IMG/VR virus record: IMGVR_UViG_3300034374_001272
Coordinates: 1 to 21,022 of that record
Direction: 5' to 3' (one strand)
Source of the DNA: a virus
DNA: 21,022 nucleotides
Within the stretch, counting starts at the first letter, position 1. Each line of letters opens with the position of its first letter. The notes beneath the pieces were generated by a model that saw only the letters and a list, made by a program, of their open reading frames with translations, had not been told where the DNA came from and made no database searches. Made by a program: the position numbers and the translations under genes. Below, one piece after another: positions 8,201 through 20,918 of the stretch.

Positions 8201-10095
8201 ACAATTATTTTCCAACAGATTATCAAGCATTCATACATAAGTCACGGTATGCCAAATACTTTGACGGTAAAGGACGTGAGTCTTGGAGCGACACAGTTGA
8301 GCGCTACATGGACAATGTAGTGCGCCCTAAGCTAGGTGACGATACGTATGTTAACAGCATTCGTGATGCTATCTTAAACCTAGAGGTCATGCCATCTATG
8401 AGGGCCATGATGACTGCTGGCCCAGCACTAGATCGTGACAATACTGCAGGGTATAACTGTAGCTACCTACCCGTAGATGACCCTAAGTCCTTCGATGAGG
8501 CTATGTTCATCTTGCTTTGTGGCACTGGTGTTGGCTTCAGTGTTGAGAGGCAGTACATCAGTAAGCTCCCTGAAATCCCTACTCTCTTCCAGAGCGATAC
8601 CACTATCGTTGTCAAGGACAGTAAGGAGGGATGGGCTAAGGCGTTTAGACAATTGTTGGCACTCCTGTGGGCTGGCGAGATCCCCCAATGGGATGTCTCT
8701 AAGGTACGTCCTGCAGGTGCAAGACTTAAAACGTTTGGCGGTAGAGCATCAGGCCCAGCGCCTCTCGTTGAATTGTTTAACTTTACTGTACAGACATTCA
8801 AGAACGCACAAGGGCGTAAGCTGTCTAGCGTAGAGTGCCATGACCTGATGTGTTTCATTGGTCAGATTGTAGTTGTAGGTGGTGTTCGCCGTAGTGCCAT
8901 GATCTCTTTGTCTAACCTCAGTGATGACCGTATGCGTCACGCTAAGTCAGGACAGTGGTGGGAGACTGCAGCGCATCGTGCCTTAGCCAATAACTCTGTA
9001 GCTTACACTGAGAAGCCAGACATGGAAACGTTTATGCGTGAGTGGCTTGCCTTAGTTGAGAGTAAATCAGGTGAGAGAGGAATATTCAATCGTGAAGCAT
9101 CTAAGAAGCAAGCTGCAAAGAATGGTAGGCGAGATCCAGAGTATCATTTTGGGACTAACCCGTGTAGTGAAATCATCTTGCGCCCGTATCAGTTCTGTAA
9201 TCTTACAGAAGTTGTTGTCAGGGCTACAGATACTATTGAAGACCTTGAGCGAAAGGTACGTGTTGCAACAATTCTGGGAACTATACAATCCTCCTACACT
9301 AAGTTCCCCTACTTGCGGAAAGTGTGGCAGAATAATACTGAAGAGGAAAGACTGCTGGGAGTGTCGCTAACAGGTATCATGGACAACCGCCTGATGACAC
9401 ATAAGAACAAAGGCTTAGAAAAAACATTGGAGCACCTAAAGAATGTCGCCATTTCTACTAATGCTGAACTTGCTGGTCGTCTTAACATACCGCCCTCTGT
9501 TGCGATTAGCTGCGTTAAACCATCGGGAACAGTCTCGCAGTTGGTTGACTCCAGCAGTGGCATCCATGCTCGTCACTCTCCATATTATGTCCGTACTGTA
9601 CGTGGTGACAATAAAGATCCCCTAACAAAGATGATGATTGATCAGGGTATACCTAATGAACCATGCGTACATAAAGGAGATACCACTACTGTATTTAGCT
9701 TTCCACAGAAGTCACCAGCAGGTGCAATAACACGTAACGATATGACAGCCGTAGAGCAACTAGAGATGTGGCTAACGTATCAGCGACACTGGTGTGAGCA
9801 TAAACCTAGTGTGACGATCTCAGTTCGTGACAGTGAGTGGTTAGCTGTAGGTGCATTTGTGTATGAGCACTTTGATGAAATGTCTGGTGTGTCTTTCTTG
9901 CCTCATTCTGATCATACTTATCAGCAAGCACCCTATCAGGATTGTACTAAAGAAGAATACGAAGAGTTGCTAGAGAGAATGCCAACTAATGTAAACTGGT
10001 CAAAGCTATCTGATTATGAGCAAGAAGATAATACAATTAGTATGCAGACGATGGCCTGTTCTGGTGACGTATGCGAAATCGTAGACCTAGTATAG
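8197..10095 (+). CDS. Adenosylcobalamin-dependent (class II) ribonucleotide reductase
   Basis: This 632-aa protein resembles the monomeric class II reductases (Lactobacillus RTPR type). The active-site pattern is FGTNPCSEIIL, with N321, thiyl-radical C323 and E325. The reducible pair would be C88 (YNCSY) and C334 (QFCNL); C323 and C334 are 11 apart, as C408 and C419 are in RTPR. A C-terminal C621-x4-C626 pair serves as the thiol shuttle re-reduced by thioredoxin. Other family segments are LLCGTGVGFSVER (106-118), VKPSGTVSQL and SSGIHARHSPYY. No separate small subunit is needed, and none is seen next to it. It converts ribonucleotides (probably triphosphates) to deoxyribonucleotides and depends on host B12. 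It overlaps mazG by 4 bases and the DUF1289 gene by 25. Confidence 0.93.
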   Translation: MNNYFPTDYQAFIHKSRYAKYFDGKGRESWSDTVERYMDNVVRPKLGDDTYVNSIRDAILNLEVMPSMRAMMTAGPALDRDNTAGYNCSYLPVDDPKSFDEAMFILLCGTGVGFSVERQYISKLPEIPTLFQSDTTIVVKDSKEGWAKAFRQLLALLWAGEIPQWDVSKVRPAGARLKTFGGRASGPAPLVELFNFTVQTFKNAQGRKLSSVECHDLMCFIGQIVVVGGVRRSAMISLSNLSDDRMRHAKSGQWWETAAHRALANNSVAYTEKPDMETFMREWLALVESKSGERGIFNREASKKQAAKNGRRDPEYHFGTNPCSEIILRPYQFCNLTEVVVRATDTIEDLERKVRVATILGTIQSSYTKFPYLRKVWQNNTEEERLLGVSLTGIMDNRLMTHKNKGLEKTLEHLKNVAISTNAELAGRLNIPPSVAISCVKPSGTVSQLVDSSSGIHARHSPYYVRTVRGDNKDPLTKMMIDQGIPNEPCVHKGDTTTVFSFPQKSPAGAITRNDMTAVEQLEMWLTYQRHWCEHKPSVTISVRDSEWLAVGAFVYEHFDEMSGVSFLPHSDHTYQQAPYQDCTKEEYEELLERMPTNVNWSKLSDYEQEDNTISMQTMACSGDVCEIVDLV

Positions 10096-10268
10096 GGTCT
10101 ATACCATCTCCCTGCATAAAGGTCTGTCGTATAGAAAAGGATGGATACTGTGCGGGGTGTAAAAGAACCATTGACGAAATACGTGAATGGAGTATAATCA
10201 GTGAAGATGAACAGAAAAAACTTCTGTTTAAATTAGCATGGAGAAAGAAGGAGAAAGCCCATGATTGA
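10071..10268 (+). CDS. DUF1289 small cysteine-motif protein, 65 aa
   Basis: The core SPCIKVCRIEKDGYCAGCKR (residues 13-32), followed by TIDEIREW, is the DUF1289 signature, with four cysteines C15, C19, C27 and C30 all kept. The family is common as small stand-alone proteins in alpha- and gammaproteobacteria; the cysteines are presumed to bind a metal or Fe-S centre, but the function is not established. The start ATG lies 25 bases inside the reductase gene, with GGTGA about 5 bases before it. Residues 46-65 are a charged helix. Co-expression with a thiol-dependent reductase makes a redox-linked role possible, which is only inference. It was probably acquired from a host. It overlaps the next gene by 8 bases. 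Confidence 0.87.
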   Translation: MRNRRPSIGSIPSPCIKVCRIEKDGYCAGCKRTIDEIREWSIISEDEQKKLLFKLAWRKKEKAHD

Positions 10269-10420: not shown

Positions 10421-10449
10421 AGCCTAGCAGTCGATGTGATTGCTAGGCT
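10421..10449. terminator. Hairpin terminator, bidirectional, stronger for the minus strand
   Basis: AGCCTAGCA (10421-10429) and TGCTAGGCT (10441-10449) form a perfect 9-bp stem around an 11-base loop. On the plus strand it is followed by TTATTATG, a modest U-rich tail. On the minus strand, leaving the hairpin at 10421, the transcript reads A-UUUUU-A-UUUUU-A (10420-10408), a much better intrinsic-terminator tail. It lies 10 bases after the stop of the membrane peptide gene and 21 bases before the endonuclease VII-like gene. Confidence 0.8.
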
Positions 10450-10470: not shown

Positions 10471-10908
10471 ATGCAACTAGATCTATTCCCTTCTACTCTA
10501 ACATACGTAGAACCAAACAAGGAAGATGAGGTTTATTTTTGTAGGAAGTGTGAGCAACATAAGGAGCCTAGTGCTTTTAATCCTAGCACTTTATTAGTAT
10601 TTAGAAACGATACTAAAGCTAGAAAGTCTGGAAGGGGTCAAGCTGTATGGTGTAGGAGTTGTAGTAAAGAATACAACATAGGAAAAAAGATAGCTGAAAG
10701 CCAAGCTAAACCTAAGCCTACAAAACCTTCACCGTGTGATTGCTGTTCTAAGATTATGCAACCTAATATGTTGTACTTAGACCACGATCATATAACTTAT
10801 AAATTTAGAGGTTGGCTGTGTCGCTCTTGTAACAGTGGCATAGGCGGCTTAGGAGATACAATAGAGGGGTTACAGAGGGCAATTAAATATTTAGAGAGCA
10901 GCCAATGA
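10471..10908 (+). CDS. Endonuclease VII-like recombination nuclease, 145 aa
   Basis: The C-terminal half carries the endonuclease VII (His-Me finger) core: C89/C92 (PCDCCSK), the LDHDH catalytic segment at 103-107, then LCRSCNSGIGGLGD (C117, C120, catalytic-type N121) and a helix GLQRAIKYL. The N-terminal half has a second cysteine set (C24-x2-C27, C61-x2-C64), as often seen in phage endonuclease VII-domain proteins. T4 endonuclease VII resolves Holliday junctions and trims branches during packaging; relatives can also be homing nucleases. This gene lies outside the coupled replication operon, after the terminator, with its own ribosome binding site (TGGAG at about 10460-10464). It overlaps the next small gene as ATGA. 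Free-standing mobility cannot be excluded. Confidence 0.85.
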   Translation: MQLDLFPSTLTYVEPNKEDEVYFCRKCEQHKEPSAFNPSTLLVFRNDTKARKSGRGQAVWCRSCSKEYNIGKKIAESQAKPKPTKPSPCDCCSKIMQPNMLYLDHDHITYKFRGWLCRSCNSGIGGLGDTIEGLQRAIKYLESSQ

Positions 10909-11111
10909 AACTAGAACAAGAAGCTAGGGAGCACCTAGTCAAAAAGAGAATGCAGTTTAAAGAGCAACTACGTGAGTATGCGGCTTACTTAGAGGACTAC
11001 ATAGACAAAAGCTTAAACCCCTGCCACGAAACAGAACAAGCTAAGATACATCTACAAGCTTGTGTGTTATGGGCAGAGGAGTCAGCCGAATGTCACAGCA
11101 CTAGAAACTAG
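10905..11111 (+). CDS. Small helical protein resembling the Acb2/Tad1 family (possible anti-CBASS), 68 aa
   Basis: This 68-aa, mostly helical protein has a charged first helix (residues 1-35, ending YAAYLEDYID), a turn SLNPC, and a second helix HETEQAKIHLQACVLWAEESAECH. The pattern 'xLExxI ... E/R-x-x-x-A-x-x-x-L-x-x-A/C-x-x-W-A' is reminiscent of short phage proteins of the Acb2/Tad1 hexamer-domain family, which sequester cyclic nucleotides used by CBASS and Thoeris defences. The match is from memory and covers few residues, so it is a hypothesis. It may simply be a small DNA-metabolism protein. It is coupled to the endonuclease VII-like gene (ATGA). Its 3' end overlaps the end of the convergent 1172-aa gene by 11 bases. 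Confidence 0.55.
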   Translation: MKLEQEAREHLVKKRMQFKEQLREYAAYLEDYIDKSLNPCHETEQAKIHLQACVLWAEESAECHSTRN

Positions 11112-14100
11112 CTGCTGCATCGTATGCTTCTTTTAAGTAGTCTGCATATTCCATAAACAAATCTAACTCAGCGAAACTGTAATCCTCTAAGCTACCAGTA
11201 ACACCAAAGATGTCTTTCATGGCTCTTGCAGTTTCGTTGCGTATCTCTTTATTATGTTTACTATTGGCTTTATTTACCATAAGTAAATGCGCGTTTTTGC
11301 TACCTGTATATCCTTTGCTTATGCGCTCTTTTATTTGAGACTTAGCGTCACGCATAACCTTCTTAAGCATAGCACGTCTTTGCGTCAAGGTTCCTTCATT
11401 AAACTCTTTTGTTAGAAGAAGCTTATTTGTTTGTTGTTCTAATACAGGTGCAAGCATAGAGTTTAACATCTTATCATAGGCAGGTATTTTAGTACGCTCA
11501 TTTGCTGCCCACGGGAACATCTCTGCCATAGAATAAGACTTCTCTGCAGCAGTACGTCCTTGCTTTATAGTTAAGCCAAAGATACGAGCAAAAGGATTAG
11601 GATCATATACATCCCCTTCGCGTGTAGCTACTCTTAGCTCTTCACCAATTCTTTTTCCTCCTATACCAAGATCTGCTGCTGTAACAGAATCTGCAGCATC
11701 AATAAATGCTTCTAAAACATTATCAATGTATTTGGTAGCCGATTGAGTAAAGAGGCTGAAGCTATCTGCTTGACGTACATCCTTAGCTGTATCAGTACCC
11801 GTAGCAAAACCAATAAGCTTATTAAACGCATCTATAGGACGTGTAAAGCCAGCCGTAAAGTTACCTGCTGCTTTAGCAAACCCATCAAGTGTAGCACCTC
11901 TTGCGCCTTCGTCATTGTTAAGTAAGATGTCAAGTACATTGTTTATATCATTACCAAACTGTGTATCCTTTGAGATCTGACCTATAGCTACTTGAGTAAG
12001 TATCTCTTGTCTAAGCTCTGGCGGTACATCTTCTCCATTACGCTTCATATTAAAGATGCGCCCTGCAGCTAAGAAGGTAGAGAAGGGGAACATATTCTTA
12101 AAGTCTACGATGGTACCACCACCTACGTCTACTTCATACACACCCAAGCCTTGTTCTCTACGTTCCTTGTCATATTCAGACGAGAGTAATATAGCAGTAC
12201 TGCCTATAGTAGCGCGTGACCACGCCTCACCTACTGATATATCTCTAGTAGGTTCTTGCCTAGTTATCTTTTTATAGACTGGCTTAAGGAATAACTCTGG
12301 AAAAGCAAGAGGTGACCACTGATATGCTGTAGCTACAACGTTATTCATAAACCTACCAAAAGGAATAATTGTACCCAAACCCGGTGTATTAGATGCAGAC
12401 TCAACTATTTTTGCTAGGCCACGTAAAAGCTCTGGCTGTTCTCCTGTGGTATAATCCTTGGCGTATACAGACTTAAGAGTTGTGTCTAGTGCAGCTTGAA
12501 TTACAGATTCATCAATGACTTCCTCGCTAGATAGTAAAGCTTCCTTCAAAGTCATCTTCTTTTCTAGGCGTAAATACTTATCCAGTTCCCCCATAAACAT
12601 CTGGGATTTAGTAAAGCTGTCCTGAACACTAACACCTGTAATATTATTAGCAGCATTAGCAGAGGCTTCCATTACTCTATAGACAGGATTGCTAGGATCT
12701 ATGCCATACTTCTCAGCCTTCCTATCTACTCCACCTGCCATAGTTTCAAGCAAGATCTTCTGCGCGTCTTTGTTCTCATCTAAGAACTTCATATATGCAT
12801 CATAGGTAGTGTAAGGGTCTAACAAGTTACGGATCTTTTGTACTTGCAACATGCGTAAAGCAGACGCCCTTCTAAAGCTCTCCTGTGCTGCCACCTTATC
12901 TATAGGTAATTGAGCTAAGCCCTTTGTCATCAAGGCTGTAGAGCTAAATAGATCAGCCATAGTTTGACCCATAGAGAACATACCAAAACCAGAAACGTTC
13001 AGCGCTGTAGTAGCAGGGGATGAAACAAGTAGACGTTTCCAGACAGACTGACCATAGCGTAAAGGCTGAGACTCCTTAGCTTTCTTAGCTTCCCTTGCAT
13101 CAATGCCCTCTACTTGATCTGCTATTTTCTTAGCTGCAGCTACAAGTCCAGAATCCATAAGCTTGCTTAGTTGTGATGCTACATTCAACGTCTTACCAGC
13201 TTCACTTAAACGTGCAGCCATAAGATCCCCTAGTTTTACACGTGATCCTGAGAGATTCCCAAACTGAAAGGATGTATATTTACCCATAAGTTTGTTGATT
13301 TCTTTCAACTCATCTTGTGTTAGAGAGTTTGCAACGTTTGTTATAATGTCAGATACGTGTATCTCTTTGCCAATTCTATAGCCCTTATCTCTAAAGAATC
13401 CTGCAAGACCCCCTATCTCACCTTTATCGTTAGGCTCACCAAATATCATCTCTTTAATGAGAGAAGAATCATCAAGGTTTTTATAACCAGGTGTACCCTT
13501 TTCTACCTTAGCATTCCATTTATCAATTGCTTCAGTTAAAGCCTTAGCTGCTTCAGGAGCTTCTTCCTTTTTTATAATAGGGGCATATTGATTGATAGTA
13601 TCTGCAGTAAGCTTATCAAATTCCTTTGTTGTATCTTCAAGTCCTGACTTACCCTTAAACTTTCTAAATGCTAATTGCGTACCACCAGCAACACCACCCA
13701 GCAAAGAAGAGAACCCTGTCTGTAGAAGACTATAAGACTCTTGAGATCCTACTTCTAACTCAGCTTGTTGTGCCATAACATCTTGCAGCACAGCAGCCGT
13801 AGCATCCAGTGCAGTGGTTTGTGCTAGTGATCCTTTCAGTCCTAGCTTTTCTAAACTAGATATACCTGCGTCCTCAAAAAGCTCACGTTGCGCTGATCTC
13901 ATGGCATCCTTAGCCATAGCGCGTCTGCCTTCTTTTTGTATCTTCTTGCTTACGCTTTTATACACACCCGCTTGTGCACGTGAACTCATGCCTTGAGCGG
14001 CAGCACGTTTTGCAGCCTCTCTACCTGCCTCTATAGCAGCTTTCTTTACAGCCTCTTTAGTTGCACCTGACTGCAGAGCCTCACGCCCAGCGCGGCGTAC

Positions 14101-14619
14101 AGCTTCTTTAATAACTTGTTTACCTGTAAGCTGCATACCTGCTGCACCAAACCGTCCAATACCACCAGTAACCAGACCTAAGTAGTTGGTAGGATCTTTA
14201 GCTGCAGCAAAGATGTAATCACCTACGCCAGACACAGCGCCCATAAGCCCATCGTTTACAAATACATTACCTAGTTGGTCATATATGTTGTAAGCTCTAC
14301 GTGCTATATCTTTCTGTCTCTGATTAGCTTTACTTACAAAGCGCAACTCTCCAGCAGTAGAGACTGTGTTAGCGTTAAAGTAACGCATACTTTTAACGAA
14401 GTCATCTACAACTTCGTCATTAGATTTTCTTTTATAATCTACGCCCTTACGCTCAATCATGTAGTCACGAATAGGCTGTAGATACATAGAGTTGTTCTTT
14501 AGATCTGATACAGTGAGCGTAGTGTCATCACTAAAGAGAGGCTCCAGTGGAACCTCCTCTTCAGTAGATGGACCTATAGAATCTAAGAAAGCGTTCAAAT
14601 CAATTTTGGTGTTGCCCAT
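11101..14619 (-). CDS. Large internal virion protein, 1172 aa (probable DNA-ejection protein)
   Basis: This is the last and largest gene of the minus-strand block. The protein is predicted mainly alpha-helical, with long Ala/Lys/Arg/Glu-rich stretches (about residues 165-250: QVIKEAVRRAGREAL, EAGREAAKRAAAQG). Weakly hydrophobic Gly/Ala segments occur near 120-155 (MGAVSGVGDYIFAAA), 300-315 (SSLLGGVAGG) and 530-565 (SSPATTALNVSGFGMFSMG), the last resembling a segment found in large phage internal or polyvalent proteins. No nuclease or protease motif is seen. Size, composition and position after smaller virion proteins fit a T7 gp16-like protein that leaves the capsid and spans the envelope during DNA ejection, although its N-terminus lacks a transglycosylase domain. 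AGAGAGA precedes the ATG. It ends in a tail-to-tail overlap with the plus-strand genes. Confidence 0.7.
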   Translation of the reverse strand: MGNTKIDLNAFLDSIGPSTEEEVPLEPLFSDDTTLTVSDLKNNSMYLQPIRDYMIERKGVDYKRKSNDEVVDDFVKSMRYFNANTVSTAGELRFVSKANQRQKDIARRAYNIYDQLGNVFVNDGLMGAVSGVGDYIFAAAKDPTNYLGLVTGGIGRFGAAGMQLTGKQVIKEAVRRAGREALQSGATKEAVKKAAIEAGREAAKRAAAQGMSSRAQAGVYKSVSKKIQKEGRRAMAKDAMRSAQRELFEDAGISSLEKLGLKGSLAQTTALDATAAVLQDVMAQQAELEVGSQESYSLLQTGFSSLLGGVAGGTQLAFRKFKGKSGLEDTTKEFDKLTADTINQYAPIIKKEEAPEAAKALTEAIDKWNAKVEKGTPGYKNLDDSSLIKEMIFGEPNDKGEIGGLAGFFRDKGYRIGKEIHVSDIITNVANSLTQDELKEINKLMGKYTSFQFGNLSGSRVKLGDLMAARLSEAGKTLNVASQLSKLMDSGLVAAAKKIADQVEGIDAREAKKAKESQPLRYGQSVWKRLLVSSPATTALNVSGFGMFSMGQTMADLFSSTALMTKGLAQLPIDKVAAQESFRRASALRMLQVQKIRNLLDPYTTYDAYMKFLDENKDAQKILLETMAGGVDRKAEKYGIDPSNPVYRVMEASANAANNITGVSVQDSFTKSQMFMGELDKYLRLEKKMTLKEALLSSEEVIDESVIQAALDTTLKSVYAKDYTTGEQPELLRGLAKIVESASNTPGLGTIIPFGRFMNNVVATAYQWSPLAFPELFLKPVYKKITRQEPTRDISVGEAWSRATIGSTAILLSSEYDKERREQGLGVYEVDVGGGTIVDFKNMFPFSTFLAAGRIFNMKRNGEDVPPELRQEILTQVAIGQISKDTQFGNDINNVLDILLNNDEGARGATLDGFAKAAGNFTAGFTRPIDAFNKLIGFATGTDTAKDVRQADSFSLFTQSATKYIDNVLEAFIDAADSVTAADLGIGGKRIGEELRVATREGDVYDPNPFARIFGLTIKQGRTAAEKSYSMAEMFPWAANERTKIPAYDKMLNSMLAPVLEQQTNKLLLTKEFNEGTLTQRRAMLKKVMRDAKSQIKERISKGYTGSKNAHLLMVNKANSKHNKEIRNETARAMKDIFGVTGSLEDYSFAELDLFMEYADYLKEAYDAAASF

Positions 14620-17014: not shown

Positions 17015-18664
17015 TTAGTTACTTGCCATAATAGTATCTGGGCGTGACCTTGGGCGAAGAGAACTGCCAGTTCCTAAATCAAAGCCAAATAATTTTTTGT
17101 GTAATTTTTTAGCATTTCTCCAGCGCTTATTAGCCTCGCCCATTCCACCTGAATGTCCTATAACAGCATATAAGTCTCTTGCTGTCTTTACATCTTCCAA
17201 GCCCTTGTCTTCTAGATATGCTTTGGTTACAGCAAGGGAAACTTGTTGATTACTAGACATTAATTCTGGATTACTAACAATGTCATACCCTGCGAGTTTA
17301 CCATATTTTTCATAATTATGTTTACCTGTGAGTTGTATTGGACCTCTGCCTATATAACGAAGTCCATCACCAGGCTCTGTATTTCCTAAATTTGAGTTTC
17401 CAGTATAACCACTACCATAAACTATCTCAAAAATCTCGTCACTAGATTTAGAATCTTGAATAGCTTTCTTACGTGCTGTCATTTTTGGACCTAATTTACC
17501 GTCTTTATTTTTATAAGGATTTACAAACTTTTTGATTGCTTGACTTTTGGAATAGCCATTCTCTGTCATATCCTTACCACCAGCAGCTTCTGCATTTACG
17601 GTCGCTATAAATGCGGCTGCAGCAATAGGGTTATTAGGAAATAATTCTTTTGCTTGTTCTATTAGTTCATCACTACTAAGAGTATAATCAGTTGTAACAA
17701 CCTGCATACTAGACACAGCATTACGCTGCTCTGCTGTTAATGGTTTAGTCATCAAGCCTTTCCCATCTGAAGGGGCTGCACCTCCATCAGCATCGTCGGT
17801 GTCAATATCAGTAGGGCTAACAACAGGAGCCGTTTCATCTTCTTCACCTTGAATTTTATTTAGCAGATCCTGTATATCTTTCTGTATAGAAGCATCATTA
17901 GGAAAAGCTTTAGACATGTTTTTTAATTCTGCTATCCGTTTAGCCTTAAGAGCATCCCTTATAAACTCTTGGCTTGTAGTAGCAACATCAAAGTCACCAC
18001 CAAGGAAAGCTGTATCCCGTGGCATACGACCTAAGTTGCCAACGCCAATAGATTCTAGAAGAGCCTCTTGGTCTTCCCTGTCCATTCTACTTAGCTCTTC
18101 TACCTCTATGCTATCATCCATTAGATCAAACAAAGGCTTGTATTGCTGTAGTTCTTGCTCTGTTAAAGGACGATTTTCTCCAGTGTAAAGGGCTGAACGA
18201 GGTGCCTCAAAACCCTGTGCTTCTAGAAGAGCATCTTGTATGGCGGTACCACGAAGATAATCTTTTACATCTGTAACTATTTCTTCTGGCTTAAATCTAT
18301 TTTCGTTGTACAGCAAACGAGGATCTCCAGAGGGTGTCCAAGTCTGATCCTTTAAATTAACACCAGAGTTTGTAAATGCATTGGCACTGTTTTTATATAG
18401 TTGCGCTGGGCTGTTAGGTTTTTCACCCCCATCACCACCTGCCATTTGTTGAGCTTTTTGATATGCACTAGTGCCTGTGCCAGCCATAGTTTGACCACCA
18501 CCACCTGCAGTCATGGTTTCAGCGTATTGTTTGTATGCATCACTAGGCTTAGTACCTAAACCCTGCTTAGCTCTACTGCCACTCATGTTAGTGCCGCCAC
18601 CACCTGCAGCCATAGAAGAACCGTACTGCTGGTAAGCATTCATTGCATTTACATTATAGCTCAT
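17015..18664 (-). CDS. Virion-associated protein with C-terminal GH19-like lysozyme domain, 549 aa
   Basis: The domain from about residue 330 to 525 is GH19-like: AAAFIATVNAEAAGG with a candidate catalytic Glu (E359), KFVNPYKN, IVYGSGYTGNSNLGN, then RYIGRGPIQLTGKHNYEKYG (436-455), the family's 'GRGxIQLTGxxNY' signature. Such domains cut peptidoglycan. Residues 1-80 contain three glycine-rich imperfect repeats (AYQQYG, AYKQYA, AYQKAQ, each followed by M-x-AGGGG or MAGGDGG). Residues 100-270 are helical and acidic. The start is ATG at 18664 with AAAGG six bases upstream, in preference to an upstream ATG at 18706 inside the previous gene. The protein could be a lysin, but its length and setting suggest a virion enzyme that opens the cell wall during ejection, as the lytic domain of T7 gp16 does. 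Confidence 0.8.
   Translation of the reverse strand: MSYNVNAMNAYQQYGSSMAAGGGGTNMSGSRAKQGLGTKPSDAYKQYAETMTAGGGGQTMAGTGTSAYQKAQQMAGGDGGEKPNSPAQLYKNSANAFTNSGVNLKDQTWTPSGDPRLLYNENRFKPEEIVTDVKDYLRGTAIQDALLEAQGFEAPRSALYTGENRPLTEQELQQYKPLFDLMDDSIEVEELSRMDREDQEALLESIGVGNLGRMPRDTAFLGGDFDVATTSQEFIRDALKAKRIAELKNMSKAFPNDASIQKDIQDLLNKIQGEEDETAPVVSPTDIDTDDADGGAAPSDGKGLMTKPLTAEQRNAVSSMQVVTTDYTLSSDELIEQAKELFPNNPIAAAAFIATVNAEAAGGKDMTENGYSKSQAIKKFVNPYKNKDGKLGPKMTARKKAIQDSKSSDEIFEIVYGSGYTGNSNLGNTEPGDGLRYIGRGPIQLTGKHNYEKYGKLAGYDIVSNPELMSSNQQVSLAVTKAYLEDKGLEDVKTARDLYAVIGHSGGMGEANKRWRNAKKLHKKLFGFDLGTGSSLRPRSRPDTIMASN
18425..18640 (-). repeat. Three glycine-rich imperfect repeats in the lysozyme-domain protein
   Basis: Residues 9-80 of the 549-aa protein hold three copies of a unit built as A-Y-(Q/K)-(Q/K)-x, a short linker, M-x-A-G-G-G-G and a following (N/T)-M-(S/A)-G. 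Copies begin near residues 10, 43 and 67; the third is shortened and reads MAGGDGG. They are probably flexible spacers or packing motifs for capsid loading. Confidence 0.65.
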
Positions 18665-18665
18665 A

Positions 18666-20918
18666 TTATGCCTTTCCAAATACAAGGTTTGCTGCGTTAA
18701 TTGCAAGCTGACCTAAGAAAGATCCAAGGGCGGCAGAACCTGCAGAACCTCTGTCAGCAGCCGCTTTAATATCAGCAGCATATCTAGCTGATTCATCTCT
18801 TATCTTTTCTATAAGAATATTAGCATCACGCTCTGCAGCATTTTCTCCAGACTGCCACGCCCAAGCCAATACATCACGATCTCTTTGAACAATGTTGTTA
18901 TAGGCTGTCATAGTTAGATTGTTAGCAACTAAAGCTGCATCTCTATTAGCTTGGTTTTGTTCTGCATTAGCTGCGGTTGTAACAGCTTGCGCCCACGCTG
19001 CATTTGCTTGTGCTACAACAAGATGGTTAGTTGCATTAAATTGATCACGTGCATTCTGTTGCTGTATATTAAATTGTGCTATAGCGTTTGCCTCTCCTGC
19101 ATTAAACCTAGACATCGCATTAGCTTGCTCAGTATTAAACTGGGAAACCTGTGTAGCTAGTGAGGCAAAGAATTGATTGACTTGATTCTCTGATGTGGCG
19201 TTAAACTGACGGGCCGCATTCTCTGCAGCCTGATCACTTAACAAAGCACGTGCAATTTCTTGTGCTTTAATCACAGACATTTGCTGTTCATTTTCTAAGT
19301 TAGCCATATCCATCTTCAAGAAAGACTTGGCATTCTCTACTGCAGCTTGTTGTCTGTTGTTCAGGTTAGTAATATCTACTTGGCTCATAGCTGCAGCATC
19401 AGCCAGAACCTTAGCATTACGTGCATCTAAGTTAGCCAAGTCTACAGACTGAGCAAGTCTAGCATTCTCTAGTGCAATAGTTTGCTCAGCATTAAAGTTC
19501 ATGTTAGCAATGTCGCTGATCTTAGCAGCATTAGCTACCCGTGTTTGGAACTCTTGAGTGAACTCCATGCCAAGAAACTCAGCACGTTTCTCTGCAGCAA
19601 ACATAGCAGACTGTTGACGGTTGCTTAAGTTCTGCTGTTCAAATCGTGCAAAGGTAGAAGCATCTGCTTGAGCAATAGGAAGCGCAGACTCCATTGCAGC
19701 TTGGATAGCCGCTTGTCCAGCCATAGATGAAGCAGACAAACCACGTGCAGCCATCATAGCGGCAGCACCACGCATAGCACCAGCAGCCCAAGCAGGTGTA
19801 GCGCCACCCTCAAAGGCTTCCATCAACCCTGTAAGCTGTCCTTGTACAGTTGCATCTGTAGATGGTGCACCTGTAGCAGCCTCAAAGTTTACCTCTTTCT
19901 TGACGCGCTCCATATCAACGGTAGCGCCTTCAATCATCTCGCCCTTCTCTATCTTACGTGGGGCAGGTGCTTTGACTGTCTGTGCCTGTGTAATCTGTGC
20001 TGCAGTAAGACCAAGAGAAGCTAATTTATCTGGCGACATAGTAGCCGCCTCTGCTAGAGCATCTGGACCTATTTTACCAGTAGCAGCCTCAACTTTACTA
20101 AGCGTGTCCTGAACTTCTGTCGATACAGTTTTAGCTGAAACCGTTGCCGCTTCAGGCTTTTCAGCAGCCACAGCACTAGGCGCTTCTTCTGCAGTAGTTG
20201 TAGTAGCTGTATCAGCAACCCCTGCTTGACCTGTACCCTCTGCAATAGTAGTGCCTTCACCAGTATCAGATACTACTCCTGCTGTAGTTACAAGCTTTGT
20301 AGGATCAGATGTAATAGCCTTAGTCATTACATTTGCAGGACTGTCGGGTGGTGGTGTTGTATTTTCTTCTTCGTCCTCTCCTGCATCTCCACCTTCCTGA
20401 AAACCTCTAACGGCACCGCCTTGTGCCATACTTATTGTATGACTATGAGGCGGTACTCCACCAGATGTAGGTCTAGGCTGAGGTCTAGGTTGTAGTAAAG
20501 AACCTCCGGGTCTTGGCTCTACGGGCAATAAACCTTCTGGTAGCTGTACAGGCTGAGGCGCTGGGTACGCTAAATTAAACTCTCCTTTGATTGCAGCATC
20601 AGATAGAGGTAATTTTTCTACAGGATCAAACGATGGACTTATAAACTGTCCTTGCATAGGAGCAGAAGTATAGCCTCTTCTTTGCATCATCATATTGTTA
20701 TCATAAGGTGTCATACCACCTTCAGCCATCTTTACTTGTTGCCCTTCAATGGCACGTCTAGCTGCTAGTGTATACTTACCCATCTTAGCTGCAGCAGCAG
20801 GGTTAGATGCTAGGAAAGCATTAATAGACTTCTGGTTCATAGGACCACTATAACCCAGCGCTGGGAGGATCTTATTTTGTAGAGTCTCTGTTTTGAATCC
20901 TGCGAATTTTTTAGCCAT
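18666..20918 (-). CDS. Repeat-rich internal virion protein, 750 aa
   Basis: The architecture is modular. Residues 1-65 are a small N-terminal region with a phage 'TLAARRAIEGQ' helix. Residues 65-190 hold MAEGG and MAQGGAVRGFQEGG motifs with proline-rich linkers (QPRPQPRP). Residues 190-360 are Thr/Ala/Glu-rich and probably unstructured. From about 375 to 720 the protein is a long Ala/Gln/Asn-rich helical rod with 22-residue and 11-residue repeats, then a Gly/Ala C-terminus (AGSAALGSFLGQLAINAANLVFG) that is mildly hydrophobic. No enzymatic motif is seen. Composition and place next to the lysozyme-domain protein suggest an internal core or ejection protein, perhaps a tube former like T7 gp14. 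AGGA precedes the ATG, which starts 2 bases after the upstream stop. Confidence 0.7.
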   Translation of the reverse strand: MAKKFAGFKTETLQNKILPALGYSGPMNQKSINAFLASNPAAAAKMGKYTLAARRAIEGQQVKMAEGGMTPYDNNMMMQRRGYTSAPMQGQFISPSFDPVEKLPLSDAAIKGEFNLAYPAPQPVQLPEGLLPVEPRPGGSLLQPRPQPRPTSGGVPPHSHTISMAQGGAVRGFQEGGDAGEDEEENTTPPPDSPANVMTKAITSDPTKLVTTAGVVSDTGEGTTIAEGTGQAGVADTATTTTAEEAPSAVAAEKPEAATVSAKTVSTEVQDTLSKVEAATGKIGPDALAEAATMSPDKLASLGLTAAQITQAQTVKAPAPRKIEKGEMIEGATVDMERVKKEVNFEAATGAPSTDATVQGQLTGLMEAFEGGATPAWAAGAMRGAAAMMAARGLSASSMAGQAAIQAAMESALPIAQADASTFARFEQQNLSNRQQSAMFAAEKRAEFLGMEFTQEFQTRVANAAKISDIANMNFNAEQTIALENARLAQSVDLANLDARNAKVLADAAAMSQVDITNLNNRQQAAVENAKSFLKMDMANLENEQQMSVIKAQEIARALLSDQAAENAARQFNATSENQVNQFFASLATQVSQFNTEQANAMSRFNAGEANAIAQFNIQQQNARDQFNATNHLVVAQANAAWAQAVTTAANAEQNQANRDAALVANNLTMTAYNNIVQRDRDVLAWAWQSGENAAERDANILIEKIRDESARYAADIKAAADRGSAGSAALGSFLGQLAINAANLVFGKA
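19008..19205 (-). repeat. 11-residue (hendecad) repeats in the 750-aa virion protein
   Basis: Six consecutive 11-residue units run from residue 572 to 637, most starting F-N and ending in Q or R, for example FNTEQANAMSR, FNAGEANAIAQ and FNIQQQNARDQ. Hendecads give three helical turns per unit and favour straight or slightly right-handed helical bundles. Confidence 0.85.
19248..19445 (-). repeat. 22-residue repeats in the 750-aa virion protein
   Basis: Three consecutive 22-residue units begin at residues 492 (VDLANLDARNAK...), 514 (VDITNLNNRQQA...) and 536 (MDMANLENEQQM...). Each opens with (V/M)-D-(L/I/M)-(A/T)-N-L. A diverged copy precedes them around residue 468 with a two-residue insertion. 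Twenty-two is twice eleven, so the units agree with the 11-residue repeat that follows. Confidence 0.8.

Follow-up and report, generated by a model that had tools for sequence, protein, structure and literature searches.

Introduction

The closest described systems to the gene analysed here are the phage proteins Acb2 and Tad1, which are grouped by Pfam in the Acb2/Tad1 hairpin family, PF24729. T4 Acb2 is reported to bind dinucleotides through Y8 and F82 (PMC12657218), and the C-terminal tail of Tad1 is described as taking part in its ligand site (PMC12043709). Phage proteins with a RyR domain, including a homologue from a Ruegeria phage, are reported to act on the cADPR signals of Thoeris by degrading or sequestering them (PMC13232231); the words Acb2, Tad1 and hairpin are absent from the main text of that paper.

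Phages of the HMO-2011 type dominate in the ocean and are widespread there, according to PMC9038755; the main text of the same paper does not mention Tad1, CBASS or the string 'anti-defen'. Most small genes of these phages have no assigned function. Searching the literature on Acb2/Tad1 hairpins and on roseophage counter-defence, we found no title describing the 68-aa gene that is our subject, which lies in a 21,022-base virus record (hereafter the window).

Results

A conserved 68-aa gene at the border of two genome halves

The features of the window considered here are as follows, with coordinates on the window.

10471–10908, plus strand: endonuclease VII gene (PF02945, E 1.1e-14)
10905–11111, plus strand: 68-aa Acb2/Tad1-hairpin-like gene (ORF, Pfam, AlphaFold, BFVD, hhalign)
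10905–10946, plus strand: conserved N-terminal part of helix 1, codons 1–14 (E4, E6, A7, H/F/Y10, K14), putatively one half of a ligand site (conservation)
10962–11075, plus strand: residues 20–57, the stretch matching PF24729 below threshold (Pfam search)
11094–11105, plus strand: conserved C-terminal tail, codons 64–67, putatively the other half of the ligand site (conservation)
11101–14619, minus strand: 1172-aa convergent ORF, the first of the minus-strand virion half, which marks the slot

The reading frame runs from ATG to TAG and encodes 68 amino acids. Its start overlaps the endonuclease VII stop in an ATGA at 10905–10908, its 3' end overlaps that of the 1172-aa minus-strand ORF by 11 bases, and GC skew changes sign at the boundary beside it. 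These observations bear out the earlier note on this DNA, which had placed the gene at the border of the two genome halves. Relatives of the protein were found in 7 viral contigs by one pattern search and in 63 by another, with identities ranging from 82% to about 30%. Substitutions between the window gene and three close relatives are mostly synonymous (dN 0.10–0.11, dS 0.24–1.02, Nei–Gojobori). Because relatives occur in many contigs and the changes are mostly synonymous, 10905–11111 is a genuine gene, conserved and under purifying selection.

Elsewhere in the window, a strong terminator-like hairpin of 13 pairs followed by a T-rich tail (10421–10449) lies just upstream of the endonuclease VII/68-aa pair, and a DUF1289 protein (PF06945, E 1.6e-17) is encoded at 10071–10268, overlapping the end of the ribonucleotide reductase gene. 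In the virion half, the protein encoded at 17015–18706 on the minus strand has a C-terminal glycoside hydrolase 19 domain (E 4.4e-8) and is likely a lytic enzyme.

Profile comparisons place the family among Acb2/Tad1 hairpins

The best Pfam match of the window protein is PF24729, at E 0.0055 and 17.3 bits against a curated cutoff of 27 bits, and no member of its family reaches that cutoff (best score 18.2 bits, best E 0.003). PF24729 was nonetheless matched by 20 of the 41 distinct members and the next family by only 4, so the match, weak when judged from a single protein alone, is not weak across the family. Among the 20 family-bearing records, the 68-aa-family gene was the record's sole PF24729 match in 9, and the other 11 had none; phiCB2047-B was the 21st record covered by this search. 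As a positive control, a PF24729 search of T4 hit one place, Vs.4, at 70.3 bits. RasGAP_C and Nitr_red_assoc (Pfam) and AnkC (NCBIfam) were rejected as unrelated proteins that few members matched (RasGAP_C, 4 of 41). A second profile, phrog_1454, was matched by 18 of the 41 members (best E 6.3e-7) and also matches T4 Vs.4, the Tad1-like protein L110 and a hairpin of phage phiCB2047-B; the window protein by itself has no match to it at E<=1.

We then compared whole profiles, using a 41-member alignment of the family (A3, which leaves out L009–L011 and also L075, at a contig end) and a reference set of seven phage hairpins (A4). hhalign aligned A3 with A4 at a probability of 95.4 over 49 gapless columns, in Tad1-like hairpins. 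Controls to this comparison gave 0.3% for a reversed profile and 1.3% for an unrelated window family. A4 in turn recovers Acb2 homolog 43 (9ptq), T4 Vs.4 (7uq2) and chains of Thoeris anti-defense 1 (Tad1) from the PDB sequences, the Tad1 chains weakly (E 0.06–0.4); when the PDB sequences were searched directly, neither the window protein nor A3 matched an Acb2 or Tad1. When A3 was aligned with Acb2-type sequences alone, the probability was 40% over 21 columns. Because this Acb2-only match is short, the family is nearer to Tad1-like hairpins than to Acb2 proper; the Acb2/Tad1 placement suggested earlier is supported by the profiles.

A two-helix hairpin is a common fold and the E-values of single proteins are below threshold, which leaves room for a chance resemblance, that is, a small helical hairpin unrelated to Acb2/Tad1 by descent. 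The profile comparisons make this reading highly improbable in our judgement. None of 500 column shuffles reached the A3–A4 score, and neither did any of 500 shuffles that kept the helix blocks and the hydrophobic pattern (real score 42.75, shuffle maximum 22.57). Aligned alone with A4, the seven subclades gave 93, 84, 84, 95, 10, 82 and 42%; the two at 10% and 42% align poorly singly, and the five others score 82–95%. A match to a named phage protein, moreover, is reciprocal. The protein is SUFG_00048 of Sulfitobacter phage phiCB2047-B, which A3 matches at E 3.1e-4 over profile positions 22–62. In SUFG_00048 a RyR domain (PF02026, E 3.3e-10) precedes an Acb2/Tad1 hairpin that scores 33.4 bits, above the cutoff. 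Taken together, common descent is well supported, with the 68-aa protein a distant homologue of the Acb2/Tad1 hairpin superfamily.

SUFG_00048 (HQ317387.2; L012:575-1141) carries two modules tied to nucleotide immune signals within one roseophage protein, a fusion that joins two sponge modules in a single chain. Gordonia phage ChisanaKitsune (NC_071006.1) has three PF24729-like places (L097, L103 and L104), two of them above the cutoff, and a RyR-like protein as well.

The predicted structure is a helical hairpin

AlphaFold2, run with 41 sequences, predicted a helical hairpin with helices at residues 2–36 and 41–64 and a mean pLDDT of 95.2, in agreement with the two-helix protein first described. 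On this predicted model the two helices are antiparallel, as in PF24729 members, the fold being a common one. The motif that had drawn attention to the protein, E42-x3-A46-x3-L50-x2-C53-x2-W56-A57, is present exactly as described but does not quite end the protein, since 11 residues follow it.

In BFVD, the first-ranked match to the model was a 68-aa protein without a name. Among the top 17 rows, 12 are named 'Acb2/Tad1 hairpin domain-containing protein' and the remaining 5 lack a functional name; the phiCB2047-B protein appears further down, at rank 47. None of the 50 rows shown for a control protein carried the Acb2/Tad1 hairpin name, a weak control because the predicted fold of that protein was a single long helix with no hairpin. 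Structure searches of the PDB gave no significant match and no Acb2 chain among the matches listed. Tad1 (7uaw) stood at rank 23 with E 6.5, and CmTad1 (8kbc) was aligned over 46 residues (21–66) with Z 5.1 and rmsd 2.8, a match that proves nothing alone because the query is a helical hairpin. The PDB matches are a mix of unrelated bundles, as a chance resemblance would also produce. The family placement is supported by the matches among the viral models of BFVD; those in the PDB are weak.

Conserved residues suggest a possible ligand site other than that of Acb2

We calculated conservation over 67 distinct members, after dropping four sequences cut by contig ends (L220, L222, L256, L271) and one of 29 aa with a broken frame (L221). 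This last copy, at L221:1501, represents either gene loss or a sequencing error. Outside the helix-helix core, conservation is strongest at E4, E6, A7, a histidine or aromatic residue at 10, K14 and H64-G65-(I/L/V)66-K67, and the turn is conserved as well (L37, S/T/C40 and E42 among the 67 members). The tail of the window protein reads H64-S-T-R67 where the family has H-G-I-K. The N-terminal conservation is partly inflated by the search patterns that recruited the members; the CRP-207 homologue, which was found by tblastn, still has I-E-x-E-A-x-x-F. With the hairpin antiparallel and its turn at 37–40, the register would put residues 10–14 beside residue 64, so that the two conserved parts would meet at the open end. 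We propose this open end, comprising E4, E6, H/F/Y10 and K14 with the H-G-I-K tail, as a candidate pocket that would replace the dinucleotide pocket of Acb2.

The aromatic residues with which Acb2 stacks on dinucleotides are absent from the 67 members: Y8 lacks a counterpart, and F82 aligns with E62, where no family member has an aromatic residue. In Acb2, helix 2 begins with R67, which we take to be the trinucleotide residue. Position 41, where Acb2/Tad1 have an arginine, is a histidine in the window protein and E, D, H, K, S or P in the family, mostly not basic. Given both differences, the ligand may not be that of Acb2. Of the proposal that this is a short, diverged marine member of the Acb2/Tad1 type, the hairpin homology stands (Pfam/PHROG, profile-profile comparison, BFVD and phiCB2047-B), and the dinucleotide residues of Acb2 are missing.

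The absence of the known ligand-contact residues, together with a position 41 that is mostly not basic, would also fit a true hairpin homologue that is no sponge but a small module for oligomerisation or for binding proteins, with endonuclease VII or a host protein as a partner, for instance. We consider this unlikely, in part because the open end and the tail are conserved beyond the needs of a bare hairpin core. Gene order bears on the same question and is taken up below.

The gene ends the plus-strand block of HMO-2011-type phages

At a threshold of E<=1e-40, the family A DNA polymerase of the window matched 12 phage records in all, from 11 isolates (HMO-2011 occurring twice), every one of them HMO-2011-type by the group assignments given in PMC9038755. 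The nearest polymerase is that of Roseobacter phage CRP-207, at 78%. By this sequence relationship we class the window phage as an HMO-2011-type marine phage, and its host is probably Roseobacter-like.

Three isolates have annotated homologues of the 68-aa protein, all labelled 'hypothetical' (CRP-2 gp43, CRP-603 gp43 and CRP-207 gp38); in each of the three, the gene closes the plus-strand block to which it belongs. To describe the slot more widely, we examined 65 loci, 64 of which have at least 300 bases downstream (L053, with fewer than 300, was dropped from the percentage, and L075 from the count as from A3). At 56 of these 64 loci the 68-aa-family gene is directly followed by a convergent minus-strand ORF longer than 200 aa; among the remaining eight, the convergent ORF is 332–549 bases away in four, and the other four are close to contig ends. 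The preceding gene encodes endonuclease VII in the window and in CRP-207. This arrangement, with the overlap of the two genes in the window, would suit a module that works with endonuclease VII, but in CRP-2, CRP-603 and many contigs the gene is preceded by PhoH, which speaks against a fixed partner.

Among the 11 HMO-2011-type isolates, the A3 profile picked up the gene in 3. In HMO-2011, CRP-1, CRP-345, CRP-3, CRP-212 and CRP-235, the small genes that occupy this position showed no homology to the family, and the annotations of CRP-738 and HTVC033P contain no obvious counterpart. A weak A3 match in CRP-345, covering 18 residues inside the MazG gene, was judged to be chance. In the six isolates, the ribonucleotide reductase gene is followed by unrelated genes of about 140–170 and about 75–88 codons (e.g. 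L191:2680-3770 and L195:4037-4699). The end of the plus-strand block is a variable slot that may hold other host-interaction genes. The earlier note had further argued that such a border is where phages often keep counter-defence genes; the slot is variable in HMO-2011-type phages but nothing marks it as a counter-defence locus, which leaves that argument weak. The A3 scan found no relative of the gene in bacterial genomes, and PADLOC returned no match.

Discussion

We think it probable, by analogy with the described proteins, that the 68-aa protein, a diverged Acb2/Tad1 superfamily member made of the hairpin alone, acts in counter-defence, most likely as an oligomeric sponge for a nucleotide immune signal. 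By homology, the hairpins would pack into an oligomer like those of Acb2 and Tad1, with ligand sites between protomers. The oligomer would then sequester either a CBASS cyclic oligonucleotide or a Thoeris cADPR isomer, and with its signal sequestered the suicide effector of the host would stay off.

A bolder version of the sponge reading, to which we give a small chance, is that the marine hairpins form a subfamily whose ligand site is new, with H/F/Y10, K14 and the H-G-I-K tail forming a pocket for a signal that may escape Acb2 and Tad1. In that version the dinucleotide aromatics and the helix 2-start arginine of Acb2 would have been lost. If true, it would indicate that abundant marine bacteria have a nucleotide-signalling defence yet to be charted. 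As a hairpin relative kept in a fixed slot, the gene is a concrete counter-defence candidate for HMO-2011-type phages, and if it binds a signal, its choice of ligand would show which nucleotide-based defences marine Roseobacter-type hosts use.

Hairpin-only members of the superfamily are already known, both as predicted proteins in BFVD and from PDB 9ptq. The short Tad1-like PF24729/phrog_1454 hairpins (L110 and those of ChisanaKitsune) have in common with the 68-aa family the two-helix hairpin, along the 49 gapless profile columns, and the helix 2 pattern S/T-x-E...A...L.....W-A. They differ in having an F-x-Y-H-P-P loop before helix 1, whereas in the 68-aa protein helix 1 begins as early as residue 2 and has E-x-E-A-x-x-[HFY] instead. 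Acb2 homolog 43 (76 aa, six chains in its solved structure) is likewise a short hairpin and was found by A4 and L110; it has R-E-K at the start of helix 2 where the 68-aa protein has H-E-T, and it gave no direct sequence match to the family. T4 Vs.4, the Acb2 of PDB 7uq2, shares the helix 2 pattern A-K-x-x-L-x-x-x-x-x-W-A, but its Y8 and F82 lack counterparts in the family and the direct profile match to it is short. Tad1 (PDB 7uaw, 8kbc) shows a weak structural likeness in the hairpin and is described as having an N-terminal antiparallel beta-sheet (PMC12043709), whereas the model of the 68-aa protein is all-helical. In SUFG_00048 the hairpin stands behind a RyR domain, and in the 68-aa protein it stands alone. 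Since the protein falls below the Pfam cutoff and has neither the aromatics of Acb2 nor the beta-sheet of Tad1, we do not call it Acb2 or Tad1; it is a distant, hairpin-only relative in the same superfamily, and it may still work as they do.
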